34,286 nt of DNA. Source: Verrucomicrobiota bacterium (lineage in GTDB: Bacteria > Verrucomicrobiota > Verrucomicrobiia > Chthoniobacterales > UBA10450). This document shows positions 25,313 through 26,738 of this stretch, piece after piece. The notes below the pieces were generated by a model. That model saw nothing but the letters and a program-made list of their open reading frames with translations, was not told the DNA's origin and searched no databases. The first letter of the stretch is position 1. Every line of letters starts with the position of its first letter. Both the position numbers and the translations under genes were made by a program. The stretch is taken from contig QHPY01000171.1 of assembly GCA_003219215.1 (NCBI GenBank), positions 1 to 34,286 of the forward strand. Direction: 5' to 3'.

Positions 25313-25331
25313 GGCTCAAGCCCCTTGAGCC
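25313..25331 (-). promoter_or_regulatory. Hairpin across the nusA stop codon
   Basis: GGCTCAAG (25313-25320) and CTTGAGCC (25324-25331) form a perfect 8-bp stem with a 3-nt loop. The nusA stop codon (25316-25318) sits in the stem, 18 bases before infB. There is no T-run, so it is more likely an intercistronic RNA structure (stability, processing or reduced read-through) than a full terminator. Confidence 0.5.
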
Positions 25332-26590
25332 GAGCCCGCTTCCTGCGTTACATCTTGCTGATGGACGGCGTCGTGAATTTCACGCGCCTTTGCTTCGTCC
25401 ACGCCAAGGATGTCTACCAAATCTTGAACATCGGCGGCGTGCAAGCCTTCCAAATTGGTAAAGCCGGATTTCACCAGCGTTACCGCTTGTTCTTCGCTGA
25501 TCGGCAACGCGCCGGCAAGCGTTTGCGCCGCTTGCGCAACCTTTTGTTCCACCGCCGTTGTGGCCGACGTGTCTTTATCGATATTAATTTCCCAACCGGT
25601 GAGTCGTGAAGTCAGGCGCGCGTTCTGTCCTTTTTTGCCGATTGCAAGGGAAAGTTGATCTTCATCCACCGAAATCTGCGCACTCTTTTTCTCAGGATCG
25701 AAGGTTATGTTCTTCACCTTCGCCGGCTTGAGGGCTTCGAGAATGAACTCCTTCGGATCGGAGCTCCAACGTATGATGTCGACCTTTTCGTTGTTGAGTT
25801 CGCGGACAATATTTTTGACGCGCGATCCGCGCATGCCGACGCACGCGCCGACCGGATCCACTTTCTCGTTTGCGCTCCAGACCGCGATTTTGGTTCGGTA
25901 ACCCGCCTCGCGCGCGATGCCGCGAATTTCCACGGTGCCATCCGCAATCTCGCTCACTTCCAATTCGAACAGACGGCGCACAAAATTCGGATGGCTGCGC
26001 GAGATGATGATCTCGGGACCGCGCAATCCATTTTCCACCGCGACCACATAAGCGCGAAGGCGGTCGCCGACATTGTAATCTTCCACGACCACGCGTTCGC
26101 GCTGCGGCATAACGGCTTCAAATTTTCCAAGATCGAGAATTACATCCGAGCGATCGAACCGGCGCACGGTGCCGCTGACGATTTCGCCGGCGCGGTCCTT
26201 GAATTCCTCGTAGATCATTTCCTTCTCGACCTGACGGATACGCTGCATCATTGCCTGTTTGGCGGTTTGCGCGGCGATGCGTCCAAAATTTCGCGGCGTC
26301 ACTTCCATTTCAACTGTGTCGCCGACTTTTGCCTCCGGTTTGATCCTTCGCGCTTTCGCGAGCGCGATCTCGTCCTGCGGATTCGTCACGTCGTCGACCA
26401 CGACGAGATTAGCCAGCGCACGGATGTCGCCGGTCCGCGGGTCGATGTCGATCCTCAGATCACGGGCGGCGCCGACACTCTTCTTCGATGCCGAAAGAAG
26501 CGCAGTGGAAACCGCTTCGAGCAGGATTTCGCGTTTGATCCCGCGCTCCCGCTCCAGGTAATCCAGCATGGCGATGAATTCAGCGTTCAT
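25316..26590 (-). CDS. nusA: Transcription termination/antitermination protein NusA
   Basis: NusA binds RNA polymerase and nascent RNA and modulates pausing, termination and antitermination. The 424-residue protein has an N-terminal polymerase-binding domain (MNAEFIAMLDYLERERGIKREILLEAVSTALLSA). An S1 domain spans about 130-200 (GEIVSGTVRRFDRSDVILDLG). KH1/KH2 domains follow (VDPVGACVGMRGSRVKNIVRELNNEKVDII; LSLAIGKKGQNARLTSRLTGWEI). It ends in one helix-hairpin-helix-like repeat (AVTLVKSGFTNLEGLHAADVQDLVDILGVDEAKAREIHD). It heads the operon. rimP, which usually precedes nusA, is not here; the upstream 148 bp are non-coding and highly structured. Confidence 0.96.
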   Translation of the reverse strand: MNAEFIAMLDYLERERGIKREILLEAVSTALLSASKKSVGAARDLRIDIDPRTGDIRALANLVVVDDVTNPQDEIALAKARRIKPEAKVGDTVEMEVTPRNFGRIAAQTAKQAMMQRIRQVEKEMIYEEFKDRAGEIVSGTVRRFDRSDVILDLGKFEAVMPQRERVVVEDYNVGDRLRAYVVAVENGLRGPEIIISRSHPNFVRRLFELEVSEIADGTVEIRGIAREAGYRTKIAVWSANEKVDPVGACVGMRGSRVKNIVRELNNEKVDIIRWSSDPKEFILEALKPAKVKNITFDPEKKSAQISVDEDQLSLAIGKKGQNARLTSRLTGWEINIDKDTSATTAVEQKVAQAAQTLAGALPISEEQAVTLVKSGFTNLEGLHAADVQDLVDILGVDEAKAREIHDAVHQQDVTQEAGSAQGA

Positions 26591-26599
26591 AAAACATCC

Positions 26600-26723
26600 A
26601 GTCCGCAGACCAAAAGGAGTGGGACATCATTTCCCACTCCAATCAGCGCGGACTAGACGCTGAACTTACCCTTTTCGAGGGAGAGCGTCAAGCTGCGGGG
26701 TTGAACGACGCTCGCGGAGCGTC
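26600..26723 (-). promoter_or_regulatory. Structured leader upstream of nusA (three inverted-repeat structures)
   Basis: Read leftward, three hairpins precede the nusA ATG (26590). Hairpin 1 is GACGCTC/GAGCGTC at 26707-26713/26717-26723. Hairpin 2 has outer arms GACGCT (26656-26661) and AGCGTC (26684-26689) around CCCT/AGGG (26669-26672/26678-26681). Hairpin 3 has outer arms AGTCCGC (26600-26606) and GCGGACT (26648-26654) around GGAGTGGGA (26616-26624) and TCCCACTCC (26632-26640). On the nusA strand the inner stem of hairpin 3 is followed by TTTT, like a weak attenuator, and the outer stem ends just before a GGA that could be the ribosome binding site. The same DNA is also the upstream region of the rightward GT39 gene. 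Confidence 0.55.
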
Positions 26724-26738
26724 CAACATCTGACCTCA

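Follow-up and report, generated by a model that had tools for sequence, protein, structure and literature searches.

The closest described counterpart of the element reported here is the rimP-leader, located in the nusA-infB 5′ UTR and defined by a terminator stem of the form GGGc..gCCC and a U-stretch, 4-130 nt before the first gene (Naville and Gautheret, 2010; PMC2965389). It is described there as having no visible antiterminator, with RimP as a possible regulator and NusA as the best candidate, and the same paper reports that the E. coli operon is repressed by NusA. In Bacillus subtilis, NusA is reported to autoregulate its synthesis through termination in the leader, about 75% of intrinsic terminators in this bacterium being stimulated by NusA (PMC12288461). 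The rimP-nusA operon of Streptococcus agalactiae reportedly yields both short and long transcripts that share a single start, with termination 31 nt after the transcription start site (TSS; PMC4448216), and the E. coli metY-nusA-infB transcript is reported to be cleaved by RNase III (PMC5371410). Attenuators of this kind have been known since 2010. Here we describe a leader that directly precedes nusA in a genome of the phylum Verrucomicrobiota with no detectable rimP, and we consider it quite probable, on the sequence evidence set out below, that this leader of a rimP-less nusA operon is a minimal NusA-stimulated transcription attenuator limiting NusA synthesis.

The window, a stretch of 34,286 nt, contains a 148-bp gap between the start of nusA and a divergent mannosyltransferase-like gene (26739, plus strand), and the downstream operon read from the leader is nusA-infB-rbfA. 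The features to which the text refers, all on the minus strand, are the following.

25316-26590, minus strand: nusA (424 aa), the regulated gene and proposed regulator, with NusA_N and KH_5 above the Pfam cut-off
26594-26660, minus strand: outer stem, 26659-26648 with 26606-26595, 12 bp, perhaps 13, around terminator and U-tract
26595-26599, minus strand: GGATG, a weak likeness of a ribosome-binding site, whose bases pair within the outer stem (from sequence and fold)
26612-26615, minus strand: U-tract TTTT of the predicted intrinsic terminator, its four T columns invariant in 52 family loci
26616-26640, minus strand: inner terminator hairpin GGAGTGGGA / TCCCACTCC, 9 bp (26640-26632 with 26624-26616) and a 7-nt loop
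26663-26691, minus strand: predicted nusA promoter, -35 TTGACG (26691-26686), 17-nt spacer, -10 TAAGTT (26668-26663)

The encoded NusA (25316-26590) is short at 424 aa, and its second KH and helix-hairpin-helix region fall under the Pfam cut-offs.

On the minus strand the 148-nt gap folds at -67.7 kcal/mol, against -46.5 kcal/mol for shuffled sequences (z -5.5; 0/200 shuffles as good), and the plus strand also beats its shuffles (z -4.2), an excess that inverted repeats predict. The minus-strand leader forms a single long hairpin composed of the inner terminator stem, a short middle helix and the outer stem. A strong 9-bp inner stem followed by TTTT on the nusA strand had been proposed in the initial annotation, and the pairing 26640-26632/26624-26616 and a terminator scan both bear this out: the scan detected 2 terminator-like sites between 26400 and 26900 (expected 0.6 ± 0.8), of which inner hairpin and TTTT form the stronger. 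Stem and tract read GTGGGA/TCCCAC plus TTTT, the stem ending 25 nt before the nusA ATG, and the U-tract, of only 4 T, is partly paired in the complete fold, where the short middle helix takes up part of it. Five of the eight modelled inner-stem pairs are invariant across 51 distinct family sequences, and this RNA hairpin, situated as it is between promoter and nusA, probably stops transcription. A dispersed repeat was considered and rejected, the gap matching genome-wide only itself and two weak stretches of 17 and 19 nt; in the same genome, model R1 scores this site at 86.6 bits and its opposite strand at 27.8 bits, the other matches being four with E 0.6-5.1 (150 of 1028 first-look candidates scored). 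Nor does the window contain a known Rfam element at gathering level; below that level there were only chance-level snoRNA matches (E up to 5).

Conservation was assessed in three nested samples. A NusA match was found in 93 of 98 relatives; 57 genomes of the host family matched, from which G049 (match not NusA) and L023 and L053 (contig ends) were removed to leave 54 loci, and most family analyses rest on 52 of these, as G006 and G046 were later additions (L001 duplicates L004). The rest of the order is represented by 36 of 37 genomes (no match in G079), and the phylum outside the order by 136 genomes with NusA, 113 of them in the main analyses and 18 in a second batch, with G131, G145, G173, G181 and G229 left out for split or fragmentary matches. 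The 52 family leaders share one plan, with which two further leaders agree: TTGAC (followed by G in 49), 16-17 nt, TAnnnT, six nt (42/52), a CTAG-type arm, the GTGGG hairpin, a T-run, GTC, a closing arm and ATG. Invariant columns in the family alignment number 19, including GTGGG, CCCACT, TTTT and GTC. The GTC after the U-tract (26608-26610, minus strand), invariant in the 52 family leaders, lies beyond the expected termination point, and in other families GTC, GTCTC and ATCC are, by eye, frequent at the corresponding place.

A GTGGG/CCCAC-type stem with T-run occurs before nusA in 54/54 family loci, 12/36 loci of the rest of the order and 104/131 further phylum loci, that is, in 170 of 221 loci examined by this looser signature (first batch 52/52, 12/36 and 89/113; second batch 2/2 and 15/18), and by the same finder 24/36 and 27/131 loci of the order and phylum sets, respectively, lack it. 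The signature and its cut-off were chosen after the relatives' sequences had been inspected; reverse complements gave 0 in every set (second batch 0/20) and one shuffle per sequence 0/201. Across 153 positive loci the stem pairs change compatibly: position 2 of GTGGG is T-A in 90, T-G in 44, C-G in 18 and other in 1, and position 5 is G-C in 138, A-T in 8 and G-T in 7. The distance from hairpin to AUG varies phylum-wide.

Within the host family the -35 element of the predicted promoter reads TTGAC in 52/52 loci, with a final G in 49/52, and the -10 element T-A-n-n-n-T in 52/52 when the spacer is taken as 16 or 17, whichever fits best. Beyond the family, TTGAC stands 49-56 nt upstream of the terminator arm in all 12 of the other order loci with a terminator, and within 110 nt upstream in 61 of 89 terminator-bearing phylum loci (background, 21/336 windows). 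Because this conserved promoter lies just upstream, the nusA transcript probably starts at about 26658-26655, at the 5′ arm of the hairpin. A nusA transcript starting downstream of 26600, which the initial annotation had named as evidence that would speak against a leader, is thus not what the sequence predicts, the predicted start preceding the hairpin. That the hairpin might instead be the terminator of an upstream gene was rejected: that gene is divergent, a conserved promoter lies in between, and the fixed distance of the promoter places the hairpin in the leader and not at an upstream gene's end. Tandem repeats like CCAACGTCCAACGTCC occur in runs upstream of the nusA promoter in L039, L043 and L054.

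The absence of rimP, also claimed initially, was confirmed by profile searches, which found RimP (PF02576) in 0/98 relatives and 0/145 Verrucomicrobiota genomes, and PF17384 in 0/145 Verrucomicrobiota genomes, the same searches being positive in 10 of 14 control genomes. Set against the rimP-leader as described, the locus has the GGG(c)...(g)CCC stem with U-stretch, the base after GGG being A and not c, and lies 25 nt before the ATG, within the 4-130 nt range, in a 5′ UTR downstream of a predicted promoter. It resembles the rimP-leader in its stem of G-rich 5′ arm and C-rich 3′ arm, its U-stretch, its position in the nusA-infB 5′ UTR and its lack of a clear antiterminator. It differs in that rimP comes first there, whereas here the leader directly precedes nusA, and RimP was not found (0/98, 0/145); we therefore class it as a rimP-less variant and do not count it among the standard rimP-leaders. 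A further difference is that the host family encloses the leader in an outer stem, of which the rimP-leader section of PMC2965389 gives no description. The Rfam family RF01770, the rimP leader of Gammaproteobacteria, shares the operon position, and the E. coli leader it matches has the same kind of terminator (GGGCTTTAGGCCC-TTTTTTT before rimP). RF01770 gave no gathering-level match in the window nor, under stricter filters, in the 145 phylum genomes, and among 14 control genomes it matched only E. coli (102 bits), so that annotation relying on it misses the element. The B. subtilis attenuator is likewise an intrinsic terminator situated in the nusA operon leader, with NusA reported as its sensor, and a terminator between promoter and nusA operon is predicted here too, as is the promoter; there, however, rimP (ylxS) is the first gene, and the NusA response, reported as demonstrated, is here inferred. 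The reported S. agalactiae leader terminates very near the TSS, as is predicted here, and differs in the presence of rimP and in phylum.

An all-species scan of contigs, with a pattern picked after inspection of the relatives, returned at least 114 matching stretches, and recovered the same leader type in two further Chthoniobacterales contigs (L152, L164). Among the 114 matches listed, 59, from many phyla, are followed on the same strand by RimP (38) or by NusA only (21) no more than 2 kb away, and in 56 of the 59 no more than 150 nt away. The other 55 of the 114 matches listed have neither over that distance (Bacteroidota 17, Pseudomonadota 14, Bacillota 13, others), many of them probably ordinary terminators. 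Of the 21 NusA-only matches listed, 20 lie within 160 nt of nusA; 7 belong to Verrucomicrobiota, and the other 13 listed to Chloroflexota (6), Planctomycetota (4), FCPU426, Elusimicrobiota and Pelagibacterales. RimP was found in 0/13 genomes of these five other phyla with the motif directly before nusA (among the matches listed; genome completeness unstated), and in 9/9 rimP-adjacent genomes by the same search. The latter figure serves as a positive control only, as these genomes were selected by their RimP hit (9 of the 38 listed loci were taken, and L104, with NusA at 478 nt, was left out). A motif directly before nusA leaves no room for an intervening rimP, and what the 0/13 adds is absence elsewhere in the genome. 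Judged from these sequences, the leader stays with nusA when rimP is lost, and its retention despite that loss points to NusA controlling its own production.

The outer stem had been noted initially as ending beside a putative ribosome binding site, and it does adjoin the start codon: its 3′ arm stops 4 nt short of the nusA ATG, and its outermost pairs may precede the transcript start. Individual folds contain it in most of 51 family leaders (L044 was left out, its leader being incomplete in the sequence taken). An alternative 5′ hairpin, AGUCC/GGAUU, replaces it in L049, L051 and L055 of genus g11. In a family alignment fitted to the model, and hence one that favours the structure, 87.9% of outer cells are paired, one outer pair occurs as U-G in 32, U-A in 12 and A-U in 7, and three outer pairs are changed on both sides. 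The overall count of pairs changed on both sides, 4, came out the same with the arms slid by +1. The outer-stem covariation score exceeds all 500 shuffles and falls when the arms are slid; four of five pair-count measures were reached by 0-4 of 500 shuffles, and that of further pair types by 140/500. RNAalifold on the plain alignment did not recover the outer stem. On the points raised at the outset, sequence comparison finds the stems conserved in relatives and the outer stem covarying within the family.

Against shuffled flanks the host family has a median rank of 0.03, and six other families lie at or below about 0.05 while many do not, so the outer stem is best supported, from sequence comparison, as a trait of the host family and some others and not of the phylum. 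A phylum-wide outer stem was rejected on between-family swaps (mean of family medians 0.40, where 0.5 is chance; KS p 0.01; 6/39 families <0.1); against shuffles by family the mean is 0.36 (KS p 0.001; 7/39 families <0.05), and the host family, f19, f25 and f28 are supported in both tests. In an initial swap test the 9 order loci reached p 0.12 and the family p 0.008; within the family a leader's own pairing beat all swaps in only 3/43, and the pattern missed 9/52 leaders. The 52 loci taken from other phyla had a swap rank of 0.40, a weak signal (p 0.04). In the 52 family leaders the mean predicted unpaired probability at -18..-4 falls from 0.38 to 0.26 when the 5′ arm is included, with a decrease in 41/52, and accessibility of the AUG is unaltered by that arm (0.52 vs 0.49); on this modelling the outer stem may hide the ribosome-binding site. 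Leaders of family f5 (L059-L061, L063, L064) have, by eye, no T-run terminator and keep complementary GACCGA ... TCGGTC flanks, and look as if the outer stem had outlived the terminator.

From the computed features (hairpin, promoter sequence, conservation, outer-stem covariation and no detectable rimP) we infer how the proposed attenuator may work. RNA polymerase would start at about 26658-26655, transcribe 16-20 nt, and then meet the GGAGUGGGA/UCCCACUCC hairpin and U-tract. With NusA plentiful, the pause or hairpin would be stabilised and most polymerases would release an RNA of ~45 nt; with NusA scarce, polymerases would read into nusA-infB-rbfA. In the host family the read-through leader would close the outer stem, its 5′ end pairing with the stretch before the AUG, and the closed stem may add a layer of translational repression. 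By analogy, NusA is the most likely sensor, since RimP, found in 0/145 genomes, cannot be the sensor here and the reports on B. subtilis, S. agalactiae and E. coli supply precedents. Of the autoregulatory attenuator first suggested for this gap, the well-supported part is the nusA-proximal hairpin, for which promoter, phylum-conserved terminator stem, family covariation and the rimP-leader and B. subtilis precedents argue; the version built of three structures is not supported.

The same anatomy would serve a constitutive partial terminator, which lets a fixed fraction of polymerases through to nusA and senses neither NusA nor anything else, and such a device would also fit the lack of support for an antiterminator pairing between the 5′ arm and the 5′ arm of the terminator (median rank in the family 0.19; KS p 0.07 across families). 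It is unlikely, in our estimate, given that sequence, beyond pairing, is conserved across phyla, that the element lies directly before nusA where rimP is missing, and that NusA feedback is reported in both B. subtilis (PMC12288461) and E. coli (PMC2965389). A NusA response alone does not, for its part, explain the sequence conservation, since some 75% of B. subtilis intrinsic terminators reportedly respond. Somewhat less likely again is a hairpin acting mainly after transcription, by hiding the ribosome-binding site or as a 5′ stability or RNase III element, with an incidental T-run: the family does support the outer stem, which reduces predicted pre-AUG accessibility in 41/52 leaders, and the reported RNase III cut in the E. 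coli transcript (PMC5371410) offers a parallel, but terminator and T-run are far more widely conserved than the outer stem, the hairpin-AUG distance varies across the phylum and AUG accessibility is unchanged.

The last rival, a termination/antitermination switch in which the 5′ arm alternates between two partners, the 5′ arm of the terminator and the arm that follows the U-tract, appears very improbable. When the growing leader is folded step by step, the terminator 5′ arm does take part in structures at 30-40 nt, with energies of -7.6 to -13.3 kcal/mol, yet the terminator wins once transcribed and the alternative pairing is not clearly above shuffles in family or phylum; a riboswitch-like antiterminator pairing under selection was accordingly rejected on the ranks given above. 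The NusA-stimulated attenuator thus remains the preferred reading. As far as the literature searched extends (open-access work and few subscription papers), conservation of such an attenuator directly before nusA across a rimP-less phylum appears to be new, and in the open-access literature the same applies to the leader's occurrence before nusA where genomes from other phyla lack rimP, and to the outer stem in the host family. Without its usual first gene, the leader directly before nusA makes these rimP-less genomes natural experiments that argue against RimP, and with about 65 nt, one promoter and one hairpin it offers a very simple test system for NusA autoregulation, suited also to asking why stem sequence, beyond pairing, is so conserved. 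More tentatively, and as a possibility we would not yet call probable, the rimP-leader could really be a nusA-leader: an ancient, sequence-specific, NusA-sensing terminator staying with nusA through rimP losses in several phyla, to which Chthoniobacterales-like Verrucomicrobiota would have added the outer stem, making a two-level switch of termination followed by ribosome-site occlusion.

The gap had been read initially as three stacked structures, of which the nusA-proximal hairpin is real and the other two persist in none but the closest relatives. In the second repeat (26656-26661 / 26684-26689) the -35 box and the start of the transcript make up the two arms, and all 6 pairs are present in 3/52 family loci and 2/5 of the genus. 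The third (26707-26723), a perfect 7-bp hairpin, occurs in 4/52 family loci, or, with two G-T pairs allowed, in 9/52 against 77/1040 shuffles; the two closest relatives keep a version with G-T pairs, and the other two of the genus have lost it. With no conservation past the closest relatives, both were rejected as RNA structures, and as they overlie or precede the conserved promoter they probably fall outside the nusA transcript; the idea of three stacked regulatory structures is unsupported. The third repeat was also rejected as a dispersed repeat, its own genome holding this site and one other, unlike inside. Upstream of the promoter lies a near-palindrome, GTTGGACGCTCCGCGAGCGTCGTTCAAC (26700-26727), which two close relatives keep with G-T pairs and two others of the genus have lost, possibly an operator for the divergent gene.
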